Origin: Antrihabitans cavernicola
GTDB lineage: Bacteria > Actinomycetota > Actinomycetes > Mycobacteriales > Mycobacteriaceae
Direction of reading: 5' to 3'
Assembly: GCF_008297975.1 (NCBI RefSeq)
Contig: NZ_VLNY01000028.1
Location: 1 to 32,803 of the forward strand
DNA length: 32,803 nt
Numbering within the stretch: position 1 is the first letter of the stretch; each line of letters begins with the position of its first letter. Under the pieces are notes generated by a model, which saw nothing but the letters and a program-made list of their open reading frames with translations, did not search any database and was not told the DNA's origin. Positions 1-22,661 of the stretch are shown here, piece after piece. A program made the translations under genes and the position numbers.

Positions 1-184
1 ACCCGACTGCCTCGAACGCGCTCATCTCCTCGTGCCGCGACTGGATGAACTTGGGTTCGTTGTCGGCACGGCCCCAGGCGGCGAGGATGCCGTTGATGCC
101 GTCGCCGGGAAAGGCGAACACGTCGTCGACGCCCCACTCCCGCAATCGCTCCAGCAGGTAGTCGGATACTTTTGTGCTGGTCAT
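1..184 (-). CDS. Thiamine-diphosphate enzyme (pyruvate oxidase/decarboxylase-like), N-terminal part
   Basis: The visible 61 residues begin MTSTKVSDYLLERLREWGV and continue through FAFPGDGINGI to RHEEMSAFEAVG; the gene runs off the left edge. This is the start of the N-terminal pyrimidine-binding domain of ThDP-dependent enzymes such as PoxB and acetolactate synthase. The FPGDGINGI loop and the glutamate in RHEE, which in this family activates the cofactor, are both present. The start codon overlaps the stop of the upstream GMC gene as TGATG, and GAAGGAG lies upstream, so it is probably translationally coupled as the last visible gene of the operon. The substrate (pyruvate or another 2-oxo acid) cannot be told from this fragment. 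Confidence 0.85.
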   Translation of the reverse strand, partial: MTSTKVSDYLLERLREWGVDDVFAFPGDGINGILAAWGRADNEPKFIQSRHEEMSAFEAVG

Positions 185-2947: not shown

Positions 2948-3547
2948 TCAAGCGCCCGTCGCCGGCAACGGTGGCGGCGTCGGGCACGCATCCAGCGCAA
3001 CGTCGACCGTTGTTGCACCTGCTTTTTCGAATGTGAACGTCAGTGGGACCGTCAGGCCGGGTCGCGCATATTTGTTGGGGTGATTGAGCACTACGTCGAT
3101 CGGAGTGTCGGGTGCGCTTGCGCCCGTGACCTGTTCGATCGGCTGCCCCGCAGCGAGGGTGGTCTTCGGCGCAATCACCAGTGCGGCCGCCGGCGCGTCG
3201 ACTGCGACCGAGTTCGCGGCGTCGCTCGCGATGCCGATGAGCCGGTCGGGCGTGGTGGAACTGTTGTTGACGGCAGTGAAAGCAACCCGGATCGGACCGC
3301 CGTGTTGTGCGACGCAGGGGCCGGTGGCCGTGGACGGCGTCAGGTAGATGTTGCGTAGCGAGATGTCACCGATGTCGGCGGAGCGACCGTTGACCGCGGC
3401 AACCTGCTGCGCTGTCTGACTGATCCGTCCTGCGGAGCAACCAGAGATCGCAAGCGCCGCAAGGGCGGCCAGCGGCACGATCGTGGCGCAGAATGCCGGT
3501 CGGCCGGTCAGATGAGCAAAGTAGGGCGGAGTGCGTCCGATTGTCAT
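2948..3547 (-). CDS. LpqE-like secreted lipoprotein
   Basis: The 199-residue protein has a long signal peptide ending in the lipobox LAISGCSAG, so it should be lipidated at Cys37 or so and anchored outside the membrane. The mature start GRISQTAQQVAAVNG closely resembles mycobacterial LpqE (GQISQTA..PAVNG), and the later LTFTFEKAG segment also matches that family. LpqE relatives share the fold of PCu(A)C copper chaperones, but the Met/His copper motif is not evident here. GGAGGAGG lies about 12 bp before the ATG. It is the first gene of the GMC operon, 71 bp below the predicted transcription start in module A. Its first codons (MTIG) and leader match those of the GH15 gene, see findings. Confidence 0.85.
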   Translation of the reverse strand: MTIGRTPPYFAHLTGRPAFCATIVPLAALAALAISGCSAGRISQTAQQVAAVNGRSADIGDISLRNIYLTPSTATGPCVAQHGGPIRVAFTAVNNSSTTPDRLIGIASDAANSVAVDAPAAALVIAPKTTLAAGQPIEQVTGASAPDTPIDVVLNHPNKYARPGLTVPLTFTFEKAGATTVDVALDACPTPPPLPATGA

Positions 3548-3548
3548 G

Positions 3549-3692
3549 TGCTGTCTGTCCTCCTCCGTGTAGTCGAGTGGCAGGGGCGCCTGGTCTCACG
3601 CTCCGCAATAATTGCGTTATGGCAAACATATGCGCAACAATTGCGACTCAGCAAGGGCCTGGCGCTACTCCCACAACGAATTCTCAGGAACG
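3549..3692 (-). promoter_or_regulatory. Promoter-operator module A (lpqE-GMC operon)
   Basis: Two 13-bp palindromes, CGCAATAATTGCG at 3604-3616 and CGCAACAATTGCG at 3633-3645, have centres 29 bp apart. On the minus strand a promoter can be read: -35 TTGCTG (3649-3654), 18-bp spacer, -10 TATGTT (3625-3630). The second palindrome lies in the spacer and the first falls near the expected transcription start, an arrangement typical of repression. The plus-strand flank 3674-3688 (CAACGAATTCTCAGG) matches the start of the MarR gene with its ATG changed to ACG. The regulator is inferred to be the MarR protein at 15410-15907. Confidence 0.75.
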
Positions 3693-3710
3693 CGTCTCGG
3701 ATTCGAACTC

Positions 3711-3741
3711 CGCAATTAGTTGCAGTAGCGCAATGCTTGCG
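3711..3741 (+). promoter_or_regulatory. Operator site B upstream of the TDT transporter
   Basis: Here CGCAATGCTTGCG (3729-3741) is a 13-mer of the same class, preceded by GCAATTAGTTGC (3712-3723). Read on the minus strand, the order palindrome-CTAC-GCAACTA equals that of modules C and D, so the module points the other way, toward the plus-strand transporter gene. ATTAGT (3715-3720) occupies the place of the -10 box, but no good -35 is seen 17-18 bp upstream. Operator identity is well supported by similarity; promoter activity is not. Confidence 0.55.
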
Positions 3742-3888
3742 GTATGTCGCGTACGATGGGTTTCGGTCGCCTCGGCGGGCGACGTGGCGGACGCGCGCGC
3801 CGGTACGGTTCGCCCGAGGGGTTGTCATGCACGCGGGTGAAATGAATACTGTTGCGTCGCGGGGGTTCTCGCAGACGGCGAGACCGCG

Positions 3889-4923
3889 ATGAGCTGGAAG
3901 TCGAGGGTCGGTCTCGGGCACATCGCGGTTGTCGGCACAGTGCCACCGGATGTGTTCGCTGTGGTCATGGCCGCGGGCATCTTGTCCATCGCCGCCGCAG
4001 ATCACGAGTATCGGGCGCTCGCGACGATTCTGGGGCTGCTTGCGTCGGCGATGTTCGCGCTGCTTCTTGTCGTTGCTGTCGTTCGGGTGACGATCGGGCC
4101 GTCGGGCAACTGGGCTCGTCGGCGTGACCCTGACGTCGCGCTACGAATGTTCACCTTTGTCGCAGCGTCCGCGGTGCTTGCCACGCGGTGGGGTGCGCAT
4201 CGCGTAATCGCTTCGACGCTGACAGCTCTCGGTCTCGTCGCGTGGCTGGTGCTGGTTCCGCTGGCGCTGCGCGACGTGCAATCCCGGACACGCAGCAATT
4301 TGCTCGATCACGTACATGGGGCCTGGCTGCTCGCCACTGTTGCCACCGAGGGGGTGACGATCACAGCGGCCGATATGTCGGCTCGCACGGGCACCGCGGC
4401 GCTGACCGCACTGGCCGCGATCGTCATGGCCGGTGGTGTCCTCGTCTATCCGCTGGTCGCGGGGGCCATCGTGGCGCGCACTGTTTCCGCCAAGCGACAT
4501 TCCGACACACTCTCGCCCGACATGTGGATTTTGATGGGGGCATTGGCAATCACATCCCTGGCCGCTGATCATGTCCTCGCCGCCGTCGTGGGTGAGGACA
4601 CCATCGGCTGGCTGGCCGAGGGGCTACCGCCGCTGGCGTGTGCGATGTGGATTGCTGCCACCGCGTGGATTCCGTTGCTGCTGTATGTCGAGATCTGGGA
4701 GGTCGAGACCCGAGCTGGGGCGCTGCGGTATCAACGCGTCTGGTGGGCCGCGGTGTTCCCACTGGGAATGTATGCGGCGGCGACGGACGCAACGTCGACG
4801 CACCTGCATATCAGGTGGTTGAGCGCGGTGTCAGTGGGCGCCTTCTGGGTTGCCGCGGCGGTGTGGTCGGTGGTCGGGCTCGGACTTGCCCGCCGCACGG
4901 TAGGGGCCGCTCGACGACCGTGA
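3889..4923 (+). CDS. TDT/SLAC1-family membrane transporter
   Basis: The protein has 344 residues with about ten hydrophobic helices. The opening PPDVFAVVMAAGILSIAA and the late VFPLGMYAAAT fit the tellurite-resistance/dicarboxylate transporter (TDT) family, which includes TehA, Mae1 and the SLAC1 anion channels. Substrates in the family are small anions (malate, sulfite, nitrate, chloride); which applies here is not visible. The start at 3889 is the first usable one after an in-frame stop at 3838-3840; its ribosome site is weak (GGCGAG). It is divergent from the lipoprotein operon and shares the operator-rich 340-bp intergenic region. Apart from these operator sites, the interval 3548-3888 holds no gene I can support. 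Confidence 0.85.
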   Translation: MSWKSRVGLGHIAVVGTVPPDVFAVVMAAGILSIAAADHEYRALATILGLLASAMFALLLVVAVVRVTIGPSGNWARRRDPDVALRMFTFVAASAVLATRWGAHRVIASTLTALGLVAWLVLVPLALRDVQSRTRSNLLDHVHGAWLLATVATEGVTITAADMSARTGTAALTALAAIVMAGGVLVYPLVAGAIVARTVSAKRHSDTLSPDMWILMGALAITSLAADHVLAAVVGEDTIGWLAEGLPPLACAMWIAATAWIPLLLYVEIWEVETRAGALRYQRVWWAAVFPLGMYAAATDATSTHLHIRWLSAVSVGAFWVAAAVWSVVGLGLARRTVGAARRP

Positions 4924-4965
4924 CGGGGCTGGTGTCGATACAGCTGGGCTCAGTTCGCGCGCTGT

Positions 4966-5478
4966 CTATTGGTCGGTGAGGTGCACGGCTCGTTCGCTCG
5001 CGCACGGGGCGGCGGGTGGCGAAGTCGAACGCGATGCCGGGGACCGGTTCGATGCCGGTCGGGAGCTGCCGTTCGGCATCGGTCGCGATCCGGATGCTTT
5101 CGGCAAATTCCAGCCTGCAGGTTTCGGTCGCGCCGACAGCCGAGTTTCCATGACGACGCGGTCCTGAGCGATGGTCTGCCACGATCGTCAACGCAGGAAC
5201 CCGTGGATTGCGTTGCGCTTGGCGGGTTCGGTGAGTGCTATTAGGTAGTCGGTTCCGTCGAACGTGTAGGTACCGTCACCGAGTCTGTTGGGCCACGGTG
5301 CCAACGGGGTGCCGTGCGCACCGTCGCACCTGGCGCCGCGATCGTTAGGGTGCAGCCACGTCTCGGTCGCCCACAGTGTAGGTGCGCACGCCGCCGCCGA
5401 CTTCGACGATGGTGGCCCGGTGCTCGCCGTGTGTGATCTCGAACTGGTCGCCCGAGGCGGCGGGATCTCGGACGTCAT
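4966..5478 (-). pseudogene. Decayed aldose 1-epimerase (galM-like)
   Basis: Remnants of a galactose mutarotase-type epimerase are spread over several frames. The first part encodes SGDQFEITHGEHRATIVEV and GGGVRTYTVGDRDV in one frame, ending in a stop. A second frame carries CDGAHGTPLAPWPNRLGDG, then TYTFDGTDY and EPAKRNAIHGFLR. These match the conserved PWPNR and NAIHG blocks of the family. After a stop at 5188, a later family block reads as RQLPTGIEPVPGIAFDF (about 5010-5070), so roughly 60 residues between are lost, and the C-terminal third is missing. Intact relatives have about 300 residues. The remnant begins where the small gene 5475-5882 ends. Not expected to be functional. Confidence 0.8.
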
Positions 5479-5882
5479 CGCTGGGCCCTTCTGTTCGTCG
5501 TTTGCGGCCAGCAAGACCGGGTGCGCCGGAGAGCGAGACTGCCGGCGACCAGGAGGCCGAGCGCGAATCCCGCCAGCACGTATTTCGTTTGTCCTCGGGT
5601 GCGGGGGTGTGTCTTCGCGGCTAGTGCTACCGGAGGGAGGTGGCCGTTTTCGGGTCGGGGTGGTCGCGCTCGGTCGAACGCCGAGGCGGTGGCATCCGCG
5701 GTCCGGCGGTCGCGGGTGTGGGCTTGCACCTGTTGCGTGCTCGCGCCCGGCCCGAATCCTGCGAGCAGGCCCGCCCTCAGCCGCGACAGCTGAGCCTGAG
5801 TGCTGCGCACATCCGGCGCTGGGCGCGGCACCGGGTATCGGCGTCCGCGTGCTGGCTCGGGTACTCCGTCACGGCGTGCCAT
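5475..5882 (-). CDS. Small protein with one C-terminal membrane helix
   Basis: The 135-residue product is basic and low in complexity, with one C-terminal membrane helix (KYVLAGFALGLLVAGSLALR). The segment PDVRSTQAQLSRLRAGLLAG and the later ALAAKTHPRTRG loosely recall DUF3618 proteins, which have an N-terminal coiled region and a C-terminal helix. The match is weak, and the middle may be frame-damaged. The start MARRDGVPEPA is chosen because GGGAGG lies 5 bp upstream. The gene is divergent from the cytochrome b/molybdopterin gene, with an operator between them. It overlaps the broken epimerase by 4 bp, so the two were probably one transcript. Function unknown. Confidence 0.5.
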   Translation of the reverse strand: MARRDGVPEPARGRRYPVPRPAPDVRSTQAQLSRLRAGLLAGFGPGASTQQVQAHTRDRRTADATASAFDRARPPRPENGHLPPVALAAKTHPRTRGQTKYVLAGFALGLLVAGSLALRRTRSCWPQTTNRRAQR

Positions 5883-5926
5883 GATCGCCTCCCGCCGTTT
5901 GGATGCCCGAAGAATCGACAACCTCA

Positions 5927-5968
5927 CTTACAGTTTGTGACTAAATTTGCGTTAGCGCAACTATTGCG
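5927..5968 (+). promoter_or_regulatory. Operator site upstream of the cytochrome b-molybdopterin gene
   Basis: CGCAACTATTGCG (5956-5968) is a perfect-arm 13-mer of the shared class. On the minus strand the region reads palindrome-CTA-CGCAAA-TTTA, colinear with module D. A degenerate second palindrome, CTTACAGTTTGTG (5927-5939), lies 29 bp away centre to centre, the same spacing as in modules A and D. The orientation faces the plus-strand gene at 6040. TAAATT (5942-5947) sits at the -10 place, but the -35 is unclear. Confidence 0.6.
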
Positions 5969-6039
5969 GTCTGACGACATATGGCGCAAGGTGAAGTAGG
6001 TGAGGGGCCAGCCGGAGTCCTCCGATCGAGGAGGTTGTG

Positions 6040-7527
6040 GTGCCGTCGTACTTTCCGTGGTGGGTCGTGGTCACCCATTTCCTCAACCTGTTCTTCATGC
6101 TGCTGCTGATGCGCTCCGGCATCGAGGTGCTCTCGGCGTTTCCGAAGTTGTATTGGAACGATCATTGCCCGCCGGGGCGCGAATGGGCTCGCTTCTCGAA
6201 GAAGACGTTCGGAGCGGACTCACGCACACCGTGGAGCAGCCTCGACGAGGAGGAATCCTGGTCGTCGGTGGTGGCGTTGCCGGGTAAGAAGAATCTCGGA
6301 CTGGGTCGGCACTGGCATTTCATGACGGTCCAGTTCTGGATCCTGACCGGGCTCGTGTACGTGGTGTTGGTGTTCACCACCGGATACTGGCACTACCTCA
6401 TTCCTACCCACTGGTCGATCGTGCCGGACTCGATCCGCGCGGTGGGCACCTACCTGCACTTTCAGATCCCCCAGAGGATCTCCGGTGAACCGTTCGAGCC
6501 CGCGCAGAAACTGACTTATTTCCTGCTGATCTTCGTTCTTGCCCCGTTCCAGATCGCGACCGGCGCAGCCATGTCTCCCACCGTCCTGGCCAGGTTTCCC
6601 TGGTACGGCAAGCTGCTGGGCGGAAAACAGGGTGCCCGGAGCCTGCACTTTCTGGGGCTGTGCGCGTTCGCAGCCTTCATCGTGCTGCACGTATTCATGG
6701 TGATCGTGCACAACCTGCCGAAGGAGTTCGTCTCGATCGTGCTGGCCGGGCACGGCAGCAGGGCCCTCGCACTGGGCGTCGGGCTGGCCGGCCTGTTCCT
6801 GATTCTGCTCTTCCACGTGGTCATCACCTGGTTCTCGTTGCGCTATCGGCGCCGCACGCAACGACTACTCGGTCTTGTCGTGAACCCGTTCGAAAAGGTC
6901 ATCTCCCGATCGCTGTCCTCGCGCGAGCACTACAGCGCCGATGATCTCTCCCCGTATCACCGGGTCAACGGCTACCCCCCGGTCGGGCAGGACTACGACC
7001 GCATGGTCGCCGACGACTTCCGCAACTACCGGCTGACCATCGGCGGACTCGTCGAGAACCCCACCACGCTCTCACTGGCGGAGCTGCGGAAATTGGGCGT
7101 GACACGCCAGACTGTCAAGCACAACTGCATTCAGGGCTGGACCGCCGTCGCCGAGTGGGCCGGTGTTCCGTTGGCTGCGGTGCTCGACCGCGTGCGCCCG
7201 ACCGCCGAGGCGCGTCACATTGTCTTCTACGCGATGGACGACAAGGGACTCACCGAAGGCGAGGGCCGCTACGGCTACTTCTACGGGTCGATTCCCATGT
7301 TCCTGGCCTACGACAGCCAGACCATCCTCGCACTGGACATGAACGGCGCCCCGCTACCGGTCGAGCACGGAGCACCCGTACGGCTGCGTATCGAGACGCA
7401 GCTCGGCTTCAAGATGGTCAAGTGGATCGTCGGAATCGAATTCGTATCCGACACCGACTCCATCGGGATGGGTATGGGCGGTTGGCGCGAGGACCAACAG
7501 TTCTACGCCAACGCGGCCGGTATCTGA
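6040..7527 (+). CDS. Membrane cytochrome b561-type / molybdopterin oxidoreductase fusion
   Basis: This 495-residue fusion has two parts. Residues 1 to about 285 form a membrane domain of five or six helices with histidines in HWHFMTVQFW, HFLGLCAFAAFIVLHVFMV and FHVVITWF, as in b-type cytochromes of the b561/YedZ type. Residues from about 330 match the sulfite-oxidase-like molybdopterin domain (YRLTIGGLVENP), with HNCIQGWTAVAEWAGVPL carrying the expected Mo-ligand cysteine (about C363). The pair resembles MsrPQ/YedYZ in one chain; no Tat signal precedes the molybdopterin domain. Two GTG codons are adjacent; 6040 is preferred because GAGGAGG lies 5 bp upstream (6037 would leave 2 bp). The electron acceptor or substrate is unknown. 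It is divergent from the gene at 5475-5882. Confidence 0.85.
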   Translation: MPSYFPWWVVVTHFLNLFFMLLLMRSGIEVLSAFPKLYWNDHCPPGREWARFSKKTFGADSRTPWSSLDEEESWSSVVALPGKKNLGLGRHWHFMTVQFWILTGLVYVVLVFTTGYWHYLIPTHWSIVPDSIRAVGTYLHFQIPQRISGEPFEPAQKLTYFLLIFVLAPFQIATGAAMSPTVLARFPWYGKLLGGKQGARSLHFLGLCAFAAFIVLHVFMVIVHNLPKEFVSIVLAGHGSRALALGVGLAGLFLILLFHVVITWFSLRYRRRTQRLLGLVVNPFEKVISRSLSSREHYSADDLSPYHRVNGYPPVGQDYDRMVADDFRNYRLTIGGLVENPTTLSLAELRKLGVTRQTVKHNCIQGWTAVAEWAGVPLAAVLDRVRPTAEARHIVFYAMDDKGLTEGEGRYGYFYGSIPMFLAYDSQTILALDMNGAPLPVEHGAPVRLRIETQLGFKMVKWIVGIEFVSDTDSIGMGMGGWREDQQFYANAAGI

Positions 7528-7685
7528 ATTGCTACGCTCACTCGACCACGACGGCGGCCACGCGATTCCGGTAGGGCCGGTCCGAGTAGTGCAGGCCGGG
7601 CGCCGGCGCCTGAACGGATTGGGTTCGCCTCTCCCGTGTAAACCCCTGCGGGTTCCGTGATCATCAGCCAATGCAGGAGGCCCGC

Positions 7686-7858
7686 ATGAGCGGTATCGAC
7701 AAGGCAAAAGAACAAGCTCGAAGACCTTGATGGTCAGGCAAGAGTAGTGGGAAGACGATCGGTGATACCGAGGTCGAGAACGAAGGCAAGGGTGACCGAG
7801 CGAAGTCGAACCTGAAGGATGCGGGCGAAAAGGCCAAAGACGCCTTCAAAGACCGAAG
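7686..7858 (+). pseudogene. Decayed CsbD-family stress protein gene
   Basis: An ATG with AGGAGG upstream starts MSGIDKAK, after which the frame shifts to KLEDLDGQA and shifts again to GKTIGDTEVENEGKGDRAKS and NLKDAGEKAKDAFKD. Joined, these give a typical 55-60 residue CsbD protein (small, lysine-rich, helical, general stress). At least two single-base changes break the frame, so no intact product is expected. The good ribosome site suggests recent decay. It follows the cytochrome b/molybdopterin gene on the same strand. Confidence 0.8.
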
Positions 7859-8233
7859 GCTTCTGTTCCGACGGTGGTGCGATAGCGTCGAACGAGCCCA
7901 ACGATGGCTCGGTGAGTGCGCAGCGGAGTTCTCGCCACTGTCGATGGGCCGCCCGCTCTGCGATGTGTATGCCGTCGACGATCGCCGCCGCCCCTGCCCT
8001 GTCGTGTGAACGCAGTCTGCCACGCAAACCTGAGGATCAGCCCGAGCGAGAGCTGTTCGACGATCTACCTGTGGCAAGGACGCTCTTGGCAACCGGAACG
8101 CGGGATCAGGGTCGCGCGGGTAACCAGGAATTGGGGTCACCCGCCAACACGTGGAGACCTGCCGGGGGCGAGAGCGAGAGCTTGTGGCCTGCGATGCATT
8201 TCTCGCCGGAGATGGGTTGTGCAGCAACAGACC
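7859..8233. other. Intergenic stretch without a recognisable gene
   Basis: Several frames stay open, as expected at this GC content, but none has a good ribosome site or a sequence I recognise. It lies between the broken CsbD gene and the unknown minus-strand gene and may hold further decayed DNA. The preceding stretch 7528-7685 contains only a short self-complementary GGCGCCGGCGCC at 7599-7610, which might act in termination after the plus-strand gene; this is weak. Confidence 0.4.
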
Positions 8234-8644
8234 TCAGGCAATGCGGCGTGGCGAATAGTGCTTGGTTCCATCATGATTCGCCGGCCCCGCAGTTCGGATC
8301 GACGCTTTCTCACGCGTTGACGTCGTGGCAGCCGTCTCGGCTGGTGGTTCGACGGTGCTCGGTGTGGCGCGTTCGGGGAGACCGGGCAATGCGATCCGAA
8401 TGGTGATGACGTCGCGTCTTACGGTGATCTCGCTGCTCGCATAGTGCTGTTCCGTGGTGGTCTGTTCGACGAGGCGCCGGATGGTCTTTTCGATGAGGGC
8501 GCTGTGCCGTTTGGACAGCACGATGACGGCGAGGGTGTCGGGCTGCAGAATCTCGAGTGCCGAGTACCGGGACACCCGCACGTCGGGGTGTCCCGCGAGT
8601 TCGAGATTGGCGATCATGTCTTTGATATCGGCGATAACGGTCAT
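8234..8644 (-). CDS. Conserved-looking small protein of unknown function
   Basis: The 136-residue product begins MTVIADIKDMIANLELAGHP and stays well structured to about residue 95, with a strand-rich DTLAVIVLSK, a helix IEKTIRRLVEQTTTEQHY and strands EITVRRDVITIRIALPG. A polar Thr/Ala/Glu-rich tail follows. No signal peptide or membrane helix is seen, so it is probably cytosolic. The start is set by AAGG 6 bp upstream of the ATG. I do not recognise the family. It lies 155 bp downstream of PEPCK on the same strand and could be cotranscribed, although the gap is long. The gap 8645-8799 shows nothing else clear. Confidence 0.6.
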   Translation of the reverse strand: MTVIADIKDMIANLELAGHPDVRVSRYSALEILQPDTLAVIVLSKRHSALIEKTIRRLVEQTTTEQHYASSEITVRRDVITIRIALPGLPERATPSTVEPPAETAATTSTREKASIRTAGPANHDGTKHYSPRRIA

Positions 8645-8799
8645 GGTGTTCCTTACCCTTCTTGCAGGTGATTGATGGACGAATGTGCTGCGATGCGAAC
8701 AAATTCGACAGCAGCGGCCGGCGGGCTCAGCATCGGCATACCGGTCGCGGATTCGAGTTGCGCTCGAGTCCTGCGGATGCCGATGCGCGTGTGGGTCGG

Positions 8800-10635
8800 T
8801 CAGTGAGAGTGCATTCTGCGTTCGAGTGCTTCGAACTCGTCGCGCACACCGGACGGCAGCTTGTCGCCGATGAACTCGAACCACTCCTCGATGAGCGGAA
8901 TTTCCTTCTTCCACTCCTCGACGTCCACCTTGAGCGACTCGTCGACATCGGCGGCCTCCACGTCGAGGCCCTCGAGGTTGATCTGCGCGGCGGTCGGCAC
9001 ATAGCCCACCGGCGTCGACTCGCCCTCCGCGGCGCCCTCGATGCGGTTCACGATCCACTCCAGCACGCGGGAGTTCTCACCGAATCCGGGCCACAGGAAG
9101 CGACCGTCGTCGCCGCGACGGAACCAGTTGACGTAGAAGATCTTCGGGAGCTTCTGCGCGTCGGCGTTCTTGCCCAGGTTGATCCAGTGGTTGACGTAGT
9201 CGCCGACGTGGTAGCCGAGGAACGGAATCATCGCCATCGGGTCACGGCGCACCGATCCGACCTTGCCTTCGGCGGCGGCGGTCTGCTCGGAGCTCATCGT
9301 CGCGCCCATGAACACGCCGTGCTGCCAGTCCAGCGACTCGGTCACCAACGGAACCGTGGTCTTGCGGCGACCACCGAAGAGGATCGCCGAGATCGGCACA
9401 CCCTGCGGGTCGTCCCATTCCGGAGCCAGTGTGGGGCACTGCGACATCGGGGTGCAGTAGCGCGAGTTCGGGTGCGCCGCTTTCTCTTCCGACTCGCGAT
9501 CCCAGTCGTGACCCTTCCAGTCGATCAGGTGGTCGGGGTCGCCTTCGAGACCTTCCCACCAGACGTCACCATTGTCGGTCAGCGCGACGTTGGTGTAGAC
9601 GGTGTTGCCCGCTTCCACCGTCTTCATCGCATTGGGATTCGACGACCAGTTGGTGCCGGGCGCGACGCCGAAGAAGCCGAACTCCGGGTTCACCGCGTAG
9701 AGGCGGCCGTCGTCACCGAAACGCATCCAGGCGATGTCGTCGCCCAAGGTCTCCGCACGCCAGCCGGGGATGGTCGGCTCGATCATCGCGAGGTTGGTCT
9801 TGCCGCACGCACTGGGGAAGGCCGCGGCGACGTAGTAGTTCTTGTTCTCCGGGCTGATCAGCTTGAGGATCAGCATGTGCTCGGCCAGCCAGCCCTCGTC
9901 GTGGGCCATGGCCGACGCGATGCGCAGCGAGTAGCACTTCTTACCCAGCAGCGCGTTGCCGCCGTAGCCGGAACCGTAGGAGATGATCTCGCGGTCCTCG
10001 GGGAAATGGGTGATGTATTTGGTGTCGCTGCAGGGCCACGGCACGTCGGCCTGGCCCTCGGCGAGCGGTGCGCCCACCGAGTGCAGCGCCTTCACGAACG
10101 GGCGGTCGGTGCCCAGCTTCTCCAGCGCCGCGGTACCCATCCGGGTCATCACGCGCATCGACACCACGACGTACTCGGAGTCGGTGATCTCGACACCCAG
10201 CTTGGGGTCGGCGGCACCGAGCGGGCCCATGCAGAACGGCACCACATACATGGTGCGGCCCTTCATCGCGCCACGGAACAGGTCGGTCAGGGTTGCGCGC
10301 ATCTCGGTCGGATCGACCCAGTTGTTGGTCGGGCCTGCATCGGCCTCGTTGCGCGAACAGATGTAGGTGCGGGACTCGACGCGTGCGACATCGGTCGGGT
10401 CGGACAGCGCGAGGAACGAGTTCGGCTTCTTGTCCGGGTTGAGCTGCTGGAACGTACCCGCGGTCACCAGGTGACTGGTCAGGCGATCCCATTCCTCGTC
10501 GGAGCCGTCGGCGAACACAACACGATCCGGTTGTGTGAGCTCGGCAACTTCGCGCACCCACGCAAGCAACTCGGCATGCCGAGTCGGGGCCTGAACGTGA
10601 GTGTCGGTGCCGTCTGGGATGGTCGCTGACGTCAT
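8800..10635 (-). CDS. pckG: Phosphoenolpyruvate carboxykinase, GTP-type
   Basis: The 611-residue enzyme catalyses oxaloacetate + GTP to phosphoenolpyruvate + GDP + CO2 (EC 4.1.1.32), the entry step of gluconeogenesis; in mycobacteria it can also run anaplerotically. Motifs seen: the P-loop [13 protein letters not shown] at about residues 272-284 with the GTP-PEPCK active cysteine, the metal-site stretch [20 protein letters not shown], then [12 protein letters not shown], and [20 protein letters not shown]. Length fits the actinobacterial family (about 606-611). The start MTSATIPDG is set by AGGAGG 5 bp upstream; about 160 nt of leader separate it from the predicted transcription start in module C. 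It stands as its own transcription unit. Confidence 0.97.
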
Positions 10636-10780
10636 TGGGTCCTCCTGGAGTGAGCAAGCCTCGAACGGGTTCATCAAGCCGCAGATCTCGACGATGAGAT
10701 TGACGGGCGCTAGTTCGCGCGGTTTGCCCAGTTCGTCGGCTACCCACCCGCGTGATGCACCGGCGAATCCCGAAGCAAAT

Positions 10781-10864
10781 CGCAATCATTGCGATACCGC
10801 AACTATATTCGTCACCGGCGTGATGCGGCAAGGCTCGTTCGCAATTGCTCAACGAATTCTCAGG
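10781..10864 (-). promoter_or_regulatory. Promoter-operator module C (PEPCK)
   Basis: CGCAATCATTGCG (10781-10793) is a perfect-arm 13-mer. The minus-strand promoter reads -35 TTGCCG (10826-10831), 18-bp spacer, -10 TATAGT (10802-10807), the same architecture as modules A and D. The second palindrome expected 29 bp away is degraded here (10810-10822). The segment CAACGAATTCTCAGG (10850-10864) is identical to one in module A and corresponds to the MarR start with ATG changed to ACG, lying 19 bp beyond the -35 box rather than 20. Confidence 0.7.
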
Positions 10865-10898
10865 GCACCGGGTGACGTGATCTTGTTCGCTGCAAACG

Positions 10899-11999
10899 TC
10901 ATGCTCGCCGGTGATGGTGTGAATTGCGTTGCGCTAGGCGGTTCGTCGATTCCAGACCCGTGACGCGACGCACGAATCGGCCTGTGCTGCGCAGCGCTGC
11001 CTCACCTTCCGGAGTGATCTTGGCGGAGAGTGGGAAGTCGTGCACCTGGCGGTCCCACACGTGCAACTCGCAGGGTGTGCCTGCTTCGATCAGACGCTGG
11101 GCCATCATTTCGGCGTCGGCGCGGAGCAGTTCGTTTTCGCCGACGTGGATCAGTACGGGTGGCATCCCGGAGAGGTCTTGTTCCACGGGCGAGAGCAGCG
11201 GTCCGGCTGTGCAGTCCACGCTGACGGCTGCCTGCGAGGTCTCGATGTGTTTCGCCAATGCGACCACGGCATCGTGGGAGAACATGGTGTTGTCCGAGTT
11301 GGCCGAGTCGGCGACCTTGTGCGCGATGTCGGCGTCGGTCAGCGGAGAGAACACGGCGAGACCGGCCGGCGCGGGAATGTTTTCGTTCAACAGTTGCAAA
11401 GCTGTCATGAAGACCAGGTAACCGCCTGCCGAGTCGCCGCAGATGGTGATGTCGGCGGAGCCGTAACCGATGTCGAGCAGGTGGCGGTAGCCGTCCAGGC
11501 AATCCTGGAGAGCGGTGGTGACGGGATGGCCCGGCAGCATCCGGTATTCGACGTTGAGTGCTGGCGCGCCGCTGAATTTCGACAATCGTGCCACTGTGCC
11601 TCGGTGTGTGTTGAGTCCGCAGGCGATGAATGCGCCGCCGTGTAGATACAGGATCGCTCGAGAGGTGTCGGCGCCGTCGGCGCGAACCCATTCCCCCTCG
11701 CACTGGGGAAGCTGCACCGGCAGCACCGAAGTCCGTGCCGGAGCGGGCAGCCACGCTGCTACCCGATCCACGATCGACGGCCAAGCACGTTGCGTGTTGT
11801 GTGCCCACACACCGAGCGCGGGTCTGATCAGACGTGAAGCGAAGACCGATACCAGCTTCGACTGGGCAGACGCGCCATGGTGCCACTCCCGTACGAAGAG
11901 CGGCGTGAGGTCAGCCCCTGCGACACGCTTTCGAGGCGTGGTTGTCTCCAGAGTTTGGTCGGGCAAGGAGATGGGTGGAGTCGAAGAATAGTTCGGCAT
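10899..11999 (-). CDS. Alpha/beta-hydrolase, hormone-sensitive-lipase (class IV) type esterase
   Basis: The 366-residue hydrolase has the oxyanion motif LYLHGGAF, the nucleophile elbow GDSAGGYL, a late acidic segment (LIHVGENELLRADAE) and the catalytic histidine in VHDFPLS. These are the marks of HSL-type esterases, which cleave short to medium acyl esters in the cytosol. No signal peptide is seen. The start MPNYSSTPP has GGAGG about 10 bp upstream. It is the last gene of the GH15-SDR-small protein-esterase operon, 21 bp after its neighbour. The actual substrate is unknown. Confidence 0.9.
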   Translation of the reverse strand: MPNYSSTPPISLPDQTLETTTPRKRVAGADLTPLFVREWHHGASAQSKLVSVFASRLIRPALGVWAHNTQRAWPSIVDRVAAWLPAPARTSVLPVQLPQCEGEWVRADGADTSRAILYLHGGAFIACGLNTHRGTVARLSKFSGAPALNVEYRMLPGHPVTTALQDCLDGYRHLLDIGYGSADITICGDSAGGYLVFMTALQLLNENIPAPAGLAVFSPLTDADIAHKVADSANSDNTMFSHDAVVALAKHIETSQAAVSVDCTAGPLLSPVEQDLSGMPPVLIHVGENELLRADAEMMAQRLIEAGTPCELHVWDRQVHDFPLSAKITPEGEAALRSTGRFVRRVTGLESTNRLAQRNSHHHRRA

Positions 12000-12020
12000 C
12001 TCTCGGATACCTCCGTGTGG

Positions 12021-12404
12021 TCATAGCGTCGGGTCGTGCGGCGACCGTGGTCCTTTCGGCGCAATGCGTGTCTGGTGGCGAGTTGTTGCGGCATATCCCG
12101 CGGCCGCGAAGCCGGAAGCGACGACGGCGTCGGCGAGGGCGGGTCGGCGACGCGGTTCATCGATTGCGGCGAGGCCCGCCATGCTGGCCGCGTGGATGAT
12201 GTCGACCGCTGTGCTGGCAACGCGAAGGCGGTGTGAGGACTGCCGTCCGGTCGCGGCGGCCTGGACGAGTTGGCGTGCGCCGAGGATGCGGGCGACGAGG
12301 TTGTCGCGACCGTCGAGTGGGCCCGCCGCCGTCCGTGCAACGCGGTGCGGGGCGAGGAGCAGGACGACGCCCCATCCCGCTCGGATCCATGACAACGTAG
12401 TCAT
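12021..12404 (-). CDS. Small protein with hydrophobic segments, unknown function
   Basis: The 127-residue product begins MTTLSWIRAGWGVVLLLAPH, a hydrophobic N-terminus, and has further apolar stretches (IIHAASMAGLAAI and ALADAVVASGFAAAGYAA), so it may be a small membrane protein. The RGLGARQL-like segment (VARILGARQLVQA) recurs in small actinobacterial proteins coded beside SDR genes, but I cannot name the family. Its ATG overlaps the SDR stop as ATGA, which fixes the start and implies translational coupling. The esterase follows 21 bp later. Confidence 0.7.
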   Translation of the reverse strand: MTTLSWIRAGWGVVLLLAPHRVARTAAGPLDGRDNLVARILGARQLVQAAATGRQSSHRLRVASTAVDIIHAASMAGLAAIDEPRRRPALADAVVASGFAAAGYAATTRHQTRIAPKGPRSPHDPTL

Positions 12405-13417
12405 CGACGCGCCCGTCCCATCGCCAGTGCTGTGGCGCCTGCCAGCAGACCGGCTGCTGCGCCGATCAGGCCGTGGTGGTGCGATGCCCACAGTTGCGGG
12501 CTGATGCCCACCGATTTGTTGTCGAAGATGCCGTGCGCCCCGAAGTCTCGGGCGTTTGTGCCGTCGGCCGGTTCCCAGAGGTTCACCGGTGCGTCCGGTG
12601 GCTGCGGTTGGTCGGTTTGTTGGGAGGCGAATCCGGTCCGGGCCAGGTATCGATCGAGCAGGCCGGGTGCGATCGCGTTGGCGATGAGTGTTCCGGCTGT
12701 GCTTGCGCCGACCCAGTACTCGCGTCGCGCAGGATGATCTGCCGCATGGAGTACGCCGCGGGCGGCGACTTCGGGTTGATAGATCGGCGGAACCGGTTGA
12801 GCTTGATTGGGAAGCCTGGAGAGCACCCAGGAGAACTGTGGGGTGTTGACCGCGGGCATCTGCACCATCGTCACCCGTACGCTGCTGTTCTCGTGCAACA
12901 GTTCACAACGCAATGACTCGTGGAAGCCCTGGATGGCGTGTTTGGCGCCGCAGTAGGCGCTCTGCAACGGGATACCGCGGTACGCGAGCGCGGAGCCGAC
13001 CTGGACGATGGTCCCGGCGTTGCGTGGGCGCATTCGTCGCAGCGCCGCCATGGTGGCGTACACGTACCCCAGGTAGCTCACCTCGGTGACCCGCTTGTAT
13101 TCCTGCGCGGTGATCTCGGTGAACGGGGAGAACACGGAGGTGAAGGCGACGTTGACCCACACGTCGATCGGTCCGAACGTCTCTTCAGTCAGGGCGGCTG
13201 CCGCCTCGACCTGATCGGGGTCGGAGACGTCGGTCGGTATCTGGAGGGCGACGCCGCCGCCTGCACGCACGTCGGCTGCGGCGCCGGCGAGGCCGGTTTC
13301 GCCTCGCGCGATCAGCGCAACGTGCGCGCCGCGGGCACCGAATGCTTTCGCGGTGGCGCGGCCGATACCGCCGCTCGCGCCGGTGACGACGACGACCTGA
13401 TGTGGCTTGTGCGGCAT
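12401..13417 (-). CDS. Short-chain dehydrogenase/reductase with C-terminal membrane segment
   Basis: The 338-residue protein has the SDR nucleotide site VVTGASGGIGRATA, then VNVAF in place of the usual NNAG, the catalytic serine in QVGSALAYRG, and YCGAK with the catalytic Tyr and Lys. The Rossmann domain ends near residue 250. An extension of about 80 residues follows, ending in a hydrophobic helix (LIGAAAGLLAGATALAMG), which makes it longer than classical SDRs and possibly membrane-attached. GAGGAG precedes the ATG. The gene starts 40 bp after the GH15 stop in the same operon. NAD(P)H-dependent oxidation or reduction is expected; the substrate is unknown. Confidence 0.92.
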   Translation of the reverse strand: MPHKPHQVVVVTGASGGIGRATAKAFGARGAHVALIARGETGLAGAAADVRAGGGVALQIPTDVSDPDQVEAAAALTEETFGPIDVWVNVAFTSVFSPFTEITAQEYKRVTEVSYLGYVYATMAALRRMRPRNAGTIVQVGSALAYRGIPLQSAYCGAKHAIQGFHESLRCELLHENSSVRVTMVQMPAVNTPQFSWVLSRLPNQAQPVPPIYQPEVAARGVLHAADHPARREYWVGASTAGTLIANAIAPGLLDRYLARTGFASQQTDQPQPPDAPVNLWEPADGTNARDFGAHGIFDNKSVGISPQLWASHHHGLIGAAAGLLAGATALAMGRARR

Positions 13418-13457
13418 GCTGTGCTCCTCGGTGTAGTGCTACGCGGTGGCGGAAAGC

Positions 13458-15287
13458 TCATGGTTGGGGCCACGGTTGGGTGAGTCGGTGGGCTGATTCG
13501 AAGAAGACGGCGTGGACGAAGGCCTGCGGGAGATTGCCGCGTAGTTGGCGTTGCCCGATGTCGTATTCCTCGGTGAAGAGCCCGGGTGGCCCGCACGCGG
13601 CGCGGTTGCGTTCGAACCAGCGAAGCGCGGCGAGTTCGTTGCCTTGTTGGTGATCGGCGAGTGCCATCAGGAAGCCGCACAGCGAAAACGCGCCTTCCGA
13701 TTCGGCAAGCGGACGATCGTCTTGCCGGAACCGGTACACATAGCCCTCGTCGCTCAGGTCGGTGCGTACCGCCTCGAGTGTTGCTCGGGTTCGTGGATCA
13801 TCGGCCGGGACAGCGCCCCGGATTGCAGGCATCAACAGGGCGGCGTCGACGCGGGGATCCTCGGGGCTTCGTTGCCAGCGCCCCGAGGGGTGTCGGCAGT
13901 CCCGTGTGGTGTCGGCTACGAGCATGTCGGCCATTTGGTTCCACTCCGCGTTCTGACGGGCAGGCGCAAGGGCAGCGGCCGCGCGAAGTCCGGCCGCGCA
14001 GGCAAGTCGGGAATGCGCCCAGCGAGCGTTGTCGAGCTCCCAAATACCGGCATCCGGTTCGCCCCATCGTTTCTCGATCGCGTCGACCGTGGCTTCGACC
14101 GCCCGCCACTGCTCGGCGTCGAGGCAGTCCAGTCGCCCCGCCGCAGCGAACAGCAACAGCGCCTCACCGAACGCGTCGAGTTGGAATTGGTCGTTGACCC
14201 AGTTGCCGGTCTTGGCACTCCCACCGGGATACCCGGGCAGATTCAGGGTGTGTTCGTCGGGGACCGCGCCACCGGTGATGGTGTAGGCGGGTTTGAGGGT
14301 CGGGCCGTCGTCGAGGATGCGCGCGGCAACGAACGCGACGGCGTCGTCGAGGAGCGGATACGCGCCGGCGGCGGCGATCGCCTGACCGGCGTAGCACTGG
14401 TCGCGGATCCAGGAGTAGCGGTAGTCGTAGTTGCGGCCCTGTTCAGCGCGTTCGGGCAGCGACATGGTGGCCGCGGCCACCATGCCGCCTCCGGCGCTGG
14501 TCATGCCTCGCAATACGGCGTACGAGTGTTGGGTATCACGGTCGGCGAGAGTGCCCGCGAAATCGGGGACCGCGGCCTCCCAGGCCTGTTCGGTTGCTCG
14601 CCACGCGATCGCGGGATCGACGCTGGCGTGGGGGAGCGGCCGGTCCGCCAGTTCCAACACCAAATCGTGGCAACGGCCTTCGGCGACGTCGATAACGGTC
14701 TCCAGGGTGCCGTCGGCCAACGTGCGCGTTGTTCCGGCCCCGGTCCACCGCAACCGGAGCGAACCGCTCCGGGCGGTGACAACCCCGTCTCGACTGGACA
14801 CTTGCTGCATCCGATGTTCACCGAATTCGGCCCGGGCGTTCAGTGTCACTCGCACCTGGGCGTCACCCTCGACCGCAACGATGCGGCGCAGCACAACTGC
14901 GGTGTTCGGATCCCCCGGGAAGGCGAGGGCCTCTCGGCATTCGATGATTCCGGTGTCGGTGACCCACCTCGACCGCCAGATCAGCGACCGGTCCTCGTAG
15001 TGGCCGCCCCAGACGAACCGCACGTGTGCTGGTGTGACCGCATATCCGCCGGTCCCTCCGATCAGGGCGGAGAACACCGCCGACGAGTCCCACCGCGGCG
15101 CGCACATCCACACGAAATCCCCGCGTGGGCCGACCAGGATCCCGCGTTCGCCGTCGGCGAGAAGGGCGTATTCACGTAGAACGTGGGGTGCGAACGCTGT
15201 TGCTGCCGAAAGATATTCGGTGGGGGGGCGGTCAGTCGGTGTGGCTGTGGCATCGATCGAGCCAGCGACTATGGGTCCGATGGTCAT
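13458..15287 (-). CDS. Glycoside hydrolase family 15 (glucoamylase/trehalase-like)
   Basis: The 609-residue enzyme has an N-terminal beta-sandwich part and a C-terminal helical barrel. Active-site blocks of GH15 are visible: GRNYDYRYSWIRDQCYAG at about 280-300, EPDAGIWELDNARWAHSR at about 407-425 with the likely general-acid Glu in GIWE, and a late FTEEYD. Family members release glucose from alpha-glucans, or split trehalose in actinobacteria. No signal peptide is seen, which favours an intracellular polymer or trehalose. AGGAGG lies upstream of the ATG. It is first in the operon with SDR, small protein and esterase, about 65 nt below the predicted start in module D. The first residues MTIG match those of the lipoprotein gene. 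Confidence 0.93.
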   Translation of the reverse strand: MTIGPIVAGSIDATATPTDRPPTEYLSAATAFAPHVLREYALLADGERGILVGPRGDFVWMCAPRWDSSAVFSALIGGTGGYAVTPAHVRFVWGGHYEDRSLIWRSRWVTDTGIIECREALAFPGDPNTAVVLRRIVAVEGDAQVRVTLNARAEFGEHRMQQVSSRDGVVTARSGSLRLRWTGAGTTRTLADGTLETVIDVAEGRCHDLVLELADRPLPHASVDPAIAWRATEQAWEAAVPDFAGTLADRDTQHSYAVLRGMTSAGGGMVAAATMSLPERAEQGRNYDYRYSWIRDQCYAGQAIAAAGAYPLLDDAVAFVAARILDDGPTLKPAYTITGGAVPDEHTLNLPGYPGGSAKTGNWVNDQFQLDAFGEALLLFAAAGRLDCLDAEQWRAVEATVDAIEKRWGEPDAGIWELDNARWAHSRLACAAGLRAAAALAPARQNAEWNQMADMLVADTTRDCRHPSGRWQRSPEDPRVDAALLMPAIRGAVPADDPRTRATLEAVRTDLSDEGYVYRFRQDDRPLAESEGAFSLCGFLMALADHQQGNELAALRWFERNRAACGPPGLFTEEYDIGQRQLRGNLPQAFVHAVFFESAHRLTQPWPQP

Positions 15288-15288
15288 G

Positions 15289-15409
15289 CGCGGTCCGTCC
15301 TCCTGGAAGTCGAGTAAAGATGGAGACGCTCAATCAGCGCAATAATTGCGCTACCGCAACTATATACGCAATTGTTGCGGTACAGCAAGCGCTCGGTGAT
15401 AATCACACA
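15289..15409 (-). promoter_or_regulatory. Promoter-operator module D between GH15 operon and marR-like gene
   Basis: CGCAATAATTGCG (15338-15350) and CGCAATTGTTGCG (15367-15379) have centres 29 bp apart, with a third half-site CGCAACTATA (15355-15364) between them. The minus-strand promoter reads -35 TTGCTG (15383-15388), 18-bp spacer, -10 TATAGT (15359-15364). One palindrome sits in the spacer and one near the start point. The divergent marR-like gene begins 31 bp beyond the second palindrome, so the regulator could control both directions. This is the most complete copy of the module. Confidence 0.8.
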
Positions 15410-15907
15410 ATGAACTCTCAGGAACGACTCGACGCGGACATGCGCGCCACCGAAGCGCAGATCGACGCGATGATGCAGGCCGCGCGGGCGCTGATCGGCA
15501 TTGCCGCACAGTCGGTGGCCGAGGTCGAGGATCAGGTCACGCTGCCCCAGTTGAGGGTGTTGGTGTTGGTCGAGAGCCGCGGAACCTTGAACCTCAACAG
15601 GTTGGCCGAAGCGATGGGAATTCATCCGTCCAACGCCACCCGGGCATGCGATCGGCTGGTCGCTATCGGGTTGTTGCAGCGCCGGGAGTCGGCGACGGAC
15701 CGACGTAACTTGGTACTCGAATTGACCGACCGTGGTAAGGATCTGGTGGATTCCGTGATCGCGCACCGCCGCGTGGTCATTGCCGACGTGCTGTCGCGCG
15801 TACCCGAGCGTCGTCGGCGTGGACTTGCAACGGCGATGACGGCATTCGCCGACGGTGCCGGGGAGGCCTTCGCTGACAACGCATGGAAGTTGGGTTGGCC
15901 GAGCTGA
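15410..15907 (+). CDS. MarR-family transcriptional regulator
   Basis: The 165-residue protein has a MarR winged helix: VTLPQLRVLVLVESRG, then recognition helix region NRLAEAMGIHPSNATRACDR and the wing RRESATDRRNLVLELTDRG with the signature D-R-R. The N- and C-terminal helices should form the dimer interface. Proteins of this type bind short palindromes as dimers and are often released by small phenolic or oxidising ligands; no redox cysteine is seen. The start MNSQERLDADM is chosen because earlier in-frame starts lie inside the operator region; the ribosome site is weak. Its position beside the best copy of the palindrome makes it the prime candidate regulator for all six sites in the window (inference). 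Confidence 0.92.
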   Translation: MNSQERLDADMRATEAQIDAMMQAARALIGIAAQSVAEVEDQVTLPQLRVLVLVESRGTLNLNRLAEAMGIHPSNATRACDRLVAIGLLQRRESATDRRNLVLELTDRGKDLVDSVIAHRRVVIADVLSRVPERRRRGLATAMTAFADGAGEAFADNAWKLGWPS

Positions 15908-15957
15908 GTCAGCACCCAGCTTGGCGAGAACCTCAGTTCGGGTGCTGGCTCCGCTAT

Positions 15958-16083
15958 GTGGCTATTTCGGCGATGGTAGCCGCAGGCACGACTCGATCAC
16001 GCGGAAGGCATTCTCGATTCTCATCGCTACGCCTCGGTATCGGGAGGAGCTGGCGTTCGAGGAGCTGCCGCAGATCACCTAGC
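15958..16083 (+). pseudogene. Broken ANTAR-domain gene
   Basis: LDHAEGIL in one frame (15992-16015) continues after a shift as ILIATPRYREELAFEEL and stops at 16081. Compared with the intact ANTAR gene at 16429-16722, which reads VLDQAEGILIASRRCREELAFEEL, the match is near-complete over the core, so this is a broken paralogue on the opposite strand. A few bases are duplicated at the shift, and the C-terminal helix is absent. It lies directly downstream of the marR-like gene. Confidence 0.75.
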
Positions 16084-16428
16084 TGCCGTGGGATGGGCCA
16101 CTGCGCGGGGGAGCCGCGATCACATCTGACCGGAGTTGCCAGTAGCTGCGAGTCGTCGCGGACAATTACCGAGCACAACGCCCGATGATCAAGTACGCCA
16201 ACGCGATTCCTTCGGGTCCCGCGATCGATTGCGGCGATCCTGCGACGGTTCACCCTCACCACCTCACGCCCGGTCTGCGCAGCGATGCTCGACGTGAGCA
16301 CGCGGGAGGTGAGGTAACGGCTCCTTGCGTACCCCGGAACCCTTGGTGTGCAACCATTTTCCGACTGGCATTGCGGGTTCTCGACCGCGGAGTTCGGTCA
16401 CCGGTGTGGGTCTAGATCGGGTGCAGGT
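16084..16428. other. Stretch without an intact gene; possible STAS-domain trace
   Basis: No intact gene is supported. On the plus strand near 16148-16188, LRVVADNYRAQRPMI recalls the end of STAS-domain anti-sigma antagonist proteins, but it is too short to be sure. Towards the right end the 15-mer GGTCTAGATCGGGTG is repeated in tandem (16409-16423 and 16426-16440), the second copy containing the stop codon of the intact ANTAR gene. Confidence 0.35.
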
Positions 16429-16440
16429 CTAGATCGGGTG
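16409..16440. repeat. 15-bp tandem direct repeat
   Basis: GGTCTAGATCGGGTG occurs twice with 2 bp (CA) between, a 17-bp period. The second copy provides the last codons and the TAG stop of the ANTAR gene read on the minus strand. It looks like a small slippage duplication. Confidence 0.9.
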
Positions 16441-16722
16441 GGGGACGTCGCCGGGGCGCTGGTGCAGTAGTTCACCCCATTCTGTGGTCGCGGCCTGCTC
16501 GCTTCCCGTGGATGCCGACCGGCTCGAATCGCCGGTTGCCACCCTCACCAGGGCTCTGGCCATCTGCAGAACGCCGAGGTGGTGTCGGCGTGCGGCGTCG
16601 AGGAGTTCCTCGAATGCGAGCTCTTCCCGACACCGACGCGAAGCGATGAGAATGCCCTCCGCCTGATCGAGCACGACCCGACCGGACAGCAACGCCACCC
16701 GATCCACTTTCGGTCTTTGCAT
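16429..16722 (-). CDS. Stand-alone ANTAR-domain protein
   Basis: The 97-residue protein consists almost wholly of an ANTAR domain (about residues 1-60: VALLSGRVVLDQAEGILIAS, CREELAFEELLDAARRHHLG). ANTAR domains bind paired RNA hairpins and act as antiterminators. No GAF or receiver domain is attached, so any signal must come from elsewhere. The start MQRPKVDRV is chosen because GAAGGGA lies 7 bp upstream; two earlier starts (16764, 16830) are possible. Operator E lies about 90 bp upstream, so it may belong to the same regulon. A tail of about 30 residues is polar. Confidence 0.82.
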   Translation of the reverse strand: MQRPKVDRVALLSGRVVLDQAEGILIASRRCREELAFEELLDAARRHHLGVLQMARALVRVATGDSSRSASTGSEQAATTEWGELLHQRPGDVPHPI

Positions 16723-16808
16723 AACGATCCCTTCGGTCCAACTGCTGAGGCAGACGCTGTTCATGCCCTCGCCATGCACGGGCGGCAACAATCCCACCTT
16801 ACTCCTTG

Positions 16809-16837
16809 CGCAACTATTGCGGATACGCAACTAATCG
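16809..16837 (-). promoter_or_regulatory. Operator site E upstream of the ANTAR gene
   Basis: CGCAACTATTGCG (16809-16821) is a perfect-arm 13-mer, followed by GATA and the half-site CGCAACTAATCG (16826-16837), the same order as the left part of module D. A GCAACAATC half-site lies to the left (16785-16793). The orientation points to the minus-strand ANTAR gene. ATTAGT on the minus strand occupies the -10 place; no clear -35 is seen. The minus-strand upstream flank shares GCGTCTCGG with site B. Confidence 0.6.
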
Positions 16838-16900: not shown

Positions 16901-17212
16901 ATGCGTAACGACACACTCGGATACATCGGATACGTTTCGGTACTGGTCGGGGCTGCGGCCGGCGGGTTGTGGCTCATTGCGTTGGGTCACGACGCGACAA
17001 TTCACGCGATAGTTGCCGGCACAGTGTCTCTCGTGTTGCTGCTCGGCGGGATCGGCACCTTGCTGCTGATTCATCTGCGTCGGCAGGCCGATCCGGTCGA
17101 GCCGACGACTACTGCCGAAGAAGTAGCGGCGTACAGGAGTCAGCATCCGCCTCGAGAGATCGCAGGATGTGAGCGCGCATCGACTCCACCACCACAACCA
17201 CGGAACCGGTGA
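16901..17212 (+). CDS. Small two-helix membrane protein, unknown function
   Basis: The 103-residue product begins MRNDTLGYIGYVSVLVGAAA and has two membrane helices (about 6-27 and 35-57, the second IVAGTVSLVLLLGGIGTLLL), then a polar tail with Pro and Arg. The start is chosen at the second of two close ATGs because GAAGGGAG lies 6 bp before it. It is divergent from the ANTAR gene across operator E. No family is recognised. Confidence 0.6.
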   Translation: MRNDTLGYIGYVSVLVGAAAGGLWLIALGHDATIHAIVAGTVSLVLLLGGIGTLLLIHLRRQADPVEPTTTAEEVAAYRSQHPPREIAGCERASTPPPQPRNR

Positions 17213-17773: not shown

Positions 17774-17821
17774 CGGTGGCCTCCTTTTCTCGGGACACCT
17801 CCAAGGGTAGGAACAGAAGGG

Positions 17822-17916: not shown

Positions 17917-17973
17917 CGACGTTGACCCTCCCGTTTCTAGCCTGGTGATGTCCGCCGAAACAGGAGACCACCG

Positions 17974-22611: not shown

Positions 22612-22661
22612 CACCACCACAGTCTGCCCACCGATCAGTCCCGCCTCGATAGGATCACGCC

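Follow-up and report, generated by a model that had tools for sequence, protein, structure and literature searches.

The locus considered here raises the question of whether a short palindrome, CGCAA-N3-TTGCG, which recurs around a gene for a MarR-type regulator, marks the operators of one coordinated regulon. It lies on a 32,803-nucleotide contig of Antrihabitans cavernicola (NZ_VLNY01000028.1), called the window throughout, which is contig C21 of the 41 that make up the 5.66 Mb genome (G000). The original prediction had proposed a local regulon in which one MarR protein joins polymer breakdown, periplasm-side oxidation, anion transport and gluconeogenesis. We found all eight of its perfect 13-mers (3604, 3633, 3729, 5956, 10781, 15338, 15367 and 16809), and all are intergenic when spurious open reading frames (ORFs) are disregarded. 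The site at 10781 falls within the longest ORF of the phosphoenolpyruvate carboxykinase (PEPCK) gene, yet it is 146 bp ahead of the likely ATG at 10635. Eight or more perfect palindromes occurred in none of 100 shuffles of the window (shuffle mean 0.02). These sites are best explained by a regulon linked to MarR and marked by this operator, which follows one MarR lineage over several genera of the family with the same enzyme genes behind it. Judged from sequence, the sites are very probably operators of an autoregulated MarR-type repressor, represented by three paralogues, that governs a metabolic regulon.

The repeated unit is not the palindrome, as had been supposed, but a composite of three half-sites. 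Beside each window palindrome, on one side and at a constant offset (palindrome start +18, the half-site 17 bp on), we found a third half-site, GCAA, which the first reading had overlooked together with a second locus on contig C19 and two further marR genes. A relaxed pattern, GCAA-N3-TTGC-N6-GCAA, run against the whole genome returned the same 13 places and no others, namely eight in the window, three at the C19 locus, one near a marR gene on C2 and one on C17; controls gave no match forward and one in reverse. The third arm is a full CGCAA in eight of these composites and carries one mismatch in the other five. Each 29-bp pair is two tandem composites, and of the two spacings the 17-bp register makes the better signature. 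The predicted 29-bp spacing holds for the pairs 3604/3633 and 15338/15367, and a genome-wide pattern scan added a third pair on C19 at 35085/35114; what had been taken for a degraded partner of 5956 proved to be a lone half-site (CGCAA, 5985).

Across the genome the perfect palindrome occurs 29 times, against six for a backward-read control: eight times in the window, three times on C19 and 18 times elsewhere. Two of these 18, on C2 and C17, resemble the window sites. The other 16 have the appearance of chance occurrences, and all except C1:136855 lie within predicted genes, as called by a home-made codon-usage scorer that is approximate and that missed a MarR gene next to a composite in one genome (G296). 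The third half-site accompanies 13 of 13 regulon sites and none of these 16 palindromes (nominal p 1.5e-8), a comparison in which the C2 and C17 sites were grouped with the regulon partly for their similar surroundings. It is also present in 20 of 23 palindromes from 11 loci of relatives, which were selected for having palindromes. We therefore rejected the idea that the palindrome is merely common, the outcome named beforehand as fatal to the prediction. Within the genome the composite is specific to target promoters, apart from the C17 site, but the regulon is not local, given the sites on C19, C2 and C17. The C17 composite (G000:C17:23146-23167; L083/L077) is perfect and lies within a weak, low-scoring ORF, and no clear target gene was found among its neighbours, which include PhoU-like and MFS genes. 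In the window, the operator at 16809 may serve either the ANTAR gene or the small conserved gene that flank it.

The marR product scored 52.8 bits against PF01047 (cut-off 24.6), which places it in the MarR family. Among 16 MarR hits in the genome, three are close paralogues (C21, C19 and C2) that share the same recognition helix, and each has a site nearby; a single regulator is thus not established, contrary to the prediction. At the more distant MarR loci, a perfect palindrome was found in none of the seven examined (of 13 hits). We then compared homologues by recognition helix, in an upstream scan that covered 32 of 37 MarR hits (E <= 1e-25), five second-copy hits being left out. Of the 14 homologues with the helix PSNA[TS]R[AT], 10 have a perfect palindrome in the 300 bp upstream, against none of the 18 with other helices (0/5 NASRI, 0/13 RM helix; p 1.6e-5 with kinship ignored). 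The homologues are mutually related, so that p-values are nominal. The shorter GCAA-N3-TTGC alone was found upstream of one further PSNA[TS]R[AT] homologue, one NASRI homologue and four of the 13 with the RM helix, and more than 300 bp from these marR genes there were four hits in 76,800 bases. Among 251 genomes of the family, 30 have a MarR homologue at the same threshold and 14 have the exact operator 22-mer (control 0); nine genomes have both (p 2e-6, or 1.1e-5 without the own genome).

These associations bear on whether the sites might answer to a different transcription factor whose gene lies elsewhere, the marR genes being merely some of its targets. Such a factor would account for the five of 14 22-mer genomes without a close MarR homologue, and for two genomes (G009 and G182; L097, L098) in which the 22-mer stands ahead of a different MarR gene adjoining an MFS gene. 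However, site presence tracks the recognition helix, and the sites accompany marR despite differing neighbours, as in G091 and G059, which have only the molybdoenzyme, and at C2, where there is no GH15 gene. The other carrier of the 22-mer is itself a MarR (28-32% identity to the window MarR over 80 residues), which points to MarR-type recognition, and we consider a separate factor quite improbable. This second carrier suggests that the half-site is common to more than one MarR lineage and that the sequence is not exclusive to that of the window. In G108 and G133, which lack a close MarR homologue, the 22-mer lies inside predicted genes; in G222 it lies between predicted genes, and the neighbouring ORF resembles a thiamine-enzyme fragment by eye.

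The different MarR of G009 and G182 is also one of several observations that weigh against a MarR-controlled regulon of the kind proposed here. The 14 PSNA[TS]R[AT] homologues include the three own paralogues and two near-identical proteins (L036, L037); L032 and L033 are of this helix type yet lack a palindrome, and L024 has only the 11-mer. The exact 22-mer is missing from 21 of the 30 homologue-bearing family genomes, and the third own marR, on C2, has its site about 370 bp off, ahead of a small ORF. No general -35/-10 rule was found across all sites, a -10 being clear, by reading, at marR only, and one of the two palindromes ahead of PEPCK has decayed. In a class-wide sample, a 21-mer was found in six of 296 genomes, the own genome included, which hardly exceeds the three control matches, and the upstream scan showed a perfect palindrome in none of the eight placed loci (of 17). 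Three of the five other genomes with the 21-mer do hold the MarR (p 0.009): going by coordinates, the 21-mer is about 120 bp ahead of a MarR hit in G296; it is just past the 3' end of the MarR gene in G084 and on another contig in G330. Outside the family, the link between operator and MarR is weak.

The promoter of marR indicates how control might work. Two palindromic candidate operators lie in it, at -72 and -43 relative to marR. In unit 2 the right arm, TTGCGG, sits 17 bp ahead of GATAAT, a plausible -35/-10 pair, and overlap between an operator arm and the likely -35 is seen in three marR copies (C21, C19 and A. stalactiti), in all of which the start context GATAATCACAC[AG]ATG is intact. 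Because this arm falls on the likely -35, MarR on the operator would keep RNA polymerase off the marR promoter, and a ligand would presumably release the protein. Only six bases separate GATAAT from the ATG, and this spacing and the intact start context suggest that the marR transcript is probably leaderless. Some MarR proteins are known to activate, and activation instead of repression would fit the lack of a clear -10 adjoining the operator at GH15 and PEPCK, by sequence reading; the overlap with the likely -35 in three marR copies is, however, the usual position for autorepression, and we regard activation as unlikely. Binding, repression, ligand control and physiological role are predictions for such an autorepressed regulon.

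This regulon appears to have grown through copying of the marR promoter. Two segments of the window, one ahead of a half-operon of PCuAC-like, gluconate 2-dehydrogenase subunit 3-like (G2DH3) and GMC genes and one ahead of PEPCK, resemble that promoter to the extent given in Table 1. In the first of these, the marR start has changed from ATG to ACG. Its palindrome arms are identical to the original at 20 of 20 positions, against 94 of 135 positions elsewhere (p 0.0013, which is overstated because perfect sites had been selected). The stretch 3535-3694 is 75% identical to its C19 counterpart. We lean, by a little, towards the view that the marR promoter, with its paired three-half-site operators and first marR codons, was copied to two places, in front of the severed half-operon and in front of the second PEPCK gene; each copy has kept at least one operator while its marR start is dead, so that the repressor's promoter would have served as a ready-made part for enlarging the regulon. 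The direction of copying, from marR to the other two places, is likewise presumed.

Two other accounts of these segments may be considered. One holds that an older divergent locus was duplicated and that a full marR once stood ahead of the GMC half-operon and was later lost. This is consistent with the reduction of marR to its first codons and with the likeness of the operon-side leader, but C19 and A. stalactiti keep an undivided operon with one marR, so that copying together with the split is simpler; we consider a lost marR possible though doubtful, and it differs from promoter copying in history, not in mechanism. The other account takes the sites as remains of a mobile repeat without a regulatory role, as the copying of whole promoter segments and the decayed palindrome at PEPCK might indicate. 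It is hardly credible, with only 13 composites in the genome, nearly all beside one gene set, with other genera having sites beside the same genes, and with unchanged arms in the 3532-3692 segment, a point biased by site selection. If promoter copying is correct, one window holds the donor promoter and copies at different stages of decay, with the unsplit C19 operon and a site-free PEPCK gene as built-in controls, and the enlargement of a regulon by copied promoters, as opposed to new point mutations, becomes directly testable.

The PEPCK gene of the window is a second copy, with 96.6% DNA identity to C22:4241-6052. The similarity begins at the ATG (10635) and fades just short of the stop, with differences denser toward both ends; 44 of 51 mismatches in our own alignment are at third codon positions (blastn counted 58 mismatches and three gaps). 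This pattern is as expected of a recent copy or of gene conversion under selection, and over 8821-10635 the end-dense differences fit gene conversion. Genome-wide scans found no palindrome or composite site at the C22 copy. Control of gluconeogenesis as a whole, which the prediction had read from the PEPCK site, does not follow when a second, site-free copy exists, and we rejected it.

The genes behind the operators form a recurrent set. We found a paralogous locus on C19 with the small conserved gene, marR, GH15, SDR, PCuAC-like, G2DH3 and GMC genes and the first part of a thiamine-enzyme gene, in which GH15 through the thiamine enzyme run unbroken on one strand. In the window the same set is split by about 8.6 kb with the TDT transporter, the cytochrome b-molybdoenzyme, PEPCK and an alpha/beta hydrolase. 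Gene by gene, the two loci are 76 to 90% identical in DNA (eight genes compared), and both contigs end inside the thiamine-enzyme gene. An undivided operon with a single marR is found on C19 and in A. stalactiti; copies of the marR promoter now stand ahead of the severed half in the window and, in more decayed form, ahead of the second PEPCK. The nearest solved relatives of the GMC protein are the FAD glucose and fructose dehydrogenases. The third marR (77%) follows the C2 site (G000:C2:77848-77869; L076) at a distance of about 370 bp, and a small ORF, zinc-ribbon-like by eye, intervenes; F420-linked genes lie upstream, and a thiamine-binding-type ORF and a secretory lipase downstream.

The site is conserved in other species ahead of orthologues of GH15, the SDR operon, the GMC operon, a gene of 598 residues and molybdoenzymes; it was not seen ahead of TDT or PEPCK in the relatives' loci that were read. 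In G236 it separates marR from an operon of SDR, G2DH3, GMC, the 598-residue gene, GH15 and the cytochrome b-molybdoenzyme; in G027, G229 and G204 it lies between GH15 and the 598-residue gene, probably the thiamine enzyme (tested in G042 and G229 only); and in G011 between marR and a G2DH3/GMC/GH15 operon. A second G011 site is inside the predicted cytochrome b-molybdoenzyme ORF, which at its start exceeds the window protein by about 100 residues, so that the true start may well follow the site. A molybdoenzyme of the 820-residue class, formate-dehydrogenase-like in NCBIfam but under the curated cut-off, is preceded by the site in A. stalactiti (G042) and G091, and in G059 by position only. 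In Phycicoccus (L080) the site is between GH15 and a replication-initiator gene, away from marR, and a clear target was not seen for the site in G165 and for one or two in G229. The predicted targets are thus GH15, SDR, GMC/G2DH3, the thiamine enzyme and the cytochrome b-molybdoenzyme, with the formate-dehydrogenase-like enzyme added in relatives. Their annotations suggest a role in oxidative sugar metabolism or as accessory electron donors.

Table 1. Genes, candidate operator units and promoter copies in the window
Feature	Position	Strand	Remarks
Thiamine-pyrophosphate enzyme gene start	1..184	-	Truncated by contig end; likeness to A. stalactiti gene
GMC oxidoreductase	184..1818	-	
G2DH3	1815..2423	-	Pfam match from longer ORF 1815-2987
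PCuAC-like gene	2948..3547	-	Pfam score under curated cut-off
Degenerate copy of marR promoter (15272-15426)	3532..3692	+	71%, E 2e-14; both palindromes and relic of marR start
Candidate operator unit ahead of PCuAC-like/G2DH3/GMC half-operon	3604..3625	+	Third half-site with one mismatch
Second candidate unit at half-operon	3633..3654	+	29 bp from first; third half-site with one mismatch
Candidate operator unit upstream of TDT transporter gene	3720..3741	-	Third half-site with one mismatch
TDT/SLAC1-type transporter	3889..4923	+	
Candidate operator unit ahead of cytochrome b-molybdopterin gene	5947..5968	-	Additional half-site at 5985
Cytochrome b561-type and molybdopterin oxidoreductase fusion	6037..7527	+	
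PEPCK (GTP)	8800..10635	-	Second copy
Candidate operator unit ahead of PEPCK	10781..10802	+	Within partial marR-promoter copy
Partial copy of marR promoter	10781-10864		73%, E 1e-5; ACG start; first palindrome intact, second decayed
Small conserved ORF after SDR	12021..12404	-	Also after SDR in several relatives
SDR oxidoreductase (PRK07109 subfamily)	12401..13417	-	GH15 operon
GH15 (trehalase/glucoamylase-like)	13458..15287	-	First gene of divergent operon
Candidate operator unit 1, marR/GH15 divergent promoter	15338..15359	+	Palindrome and third half-site
Candidate operator unit 2, marR/GH15 promoter	15367..15388	+	29 bp on; third half-site with one mismatch
marR	15410..15907	+	165 aa; Pfam MarR 3.7e-14
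ANTAR-domain gene	16429..16722	-	
Candidate operator unit between ANTAR gene and small conserved gene	16809..16830	+	
Small conserved gene	16901..17212	+	Membrane-like by eye, no Pfam match; beside site also on C19 and in A. stalactiti

Classical autoregulated MarR repressors of the Escherichia coli MarR type have operators at their own promoter and divergent target genes. The window shares this plan, and is unlike it in the three-half-site composite with its 17-bp register, the 29-bp repeats at two promoters and a regulon of enzymes in place of an efflux pump. The closest solved relative by sequence is the MarR-family protein Rv1404 of Mycobacterium tuberculosis (structure 2nyx; E 7.7e-30, residues 15-154), the target of which is said, in the title of one paper, to be an adjacent methyltransferase. 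No methyltransferase domain was found among the scanned neighbours of the window marR, which include GH15, SDR and ANTAR. The recognition helices also differ, PSATGRMVDRL in Rv1404 against PSNATRACDRL in the window MarR, and homologues with the RM helix counted above are those with the Rv1404-type helix; we rejected the window MarR as an Rv1404 orthologue on account of this helix (PSNATRA versus PSATGRM). Work by Matus-Garcia (2012) and Oren (2014), cited in PMC11111574, reportedly concerns, going by the titles, promoter propagation and regulatory rewiring through transfer of noncoding DNA. Compared with those systems, the piece apparently copied in the window is the regulator's own promoter with a start-codon relic. 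A further likeness is to MalR of Corynebacterium glutamicum, which is MarR-type, has many scattered targets and comes from a related organism; its motif is described, in an excerpt of the source, as an AT-rich palindrome, unlike the operator found here (PMC6536590). Rv1404 has a reported role in acid stress, according to excerpts of two papers (PMC13002591, PMC6536590). We found nothing on the motif or operon in open-licence papers, the only ones covered. The regulator is of a familiar kind; new are its three-half-site operator, the set of enzymes conserved behind it and the copying of the marR promoter. The operator gives an exact pattern by which to search for this MarR lineage, and it ties several little-understood enzymes into one set, namely GH15, GMC/G2DH3, a PRK08273-type thiamine enzyme and the cytochrome b-molybdoenzyme.

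Some minor features of the window were also observed. An inverted partial repeat (15992-16066 and 16604-16671; 79%), which also matches the ANTAR-side region of C19, is probably what remains of a copied ANTAR gene. Beside the regulon, 18165-24743 holds ABC transporter genes, a MacB/FtsX permease and a two-component system, with no composite operators found there. A long imperfect self-inverted repeat (68%) occupies 17765-17982.

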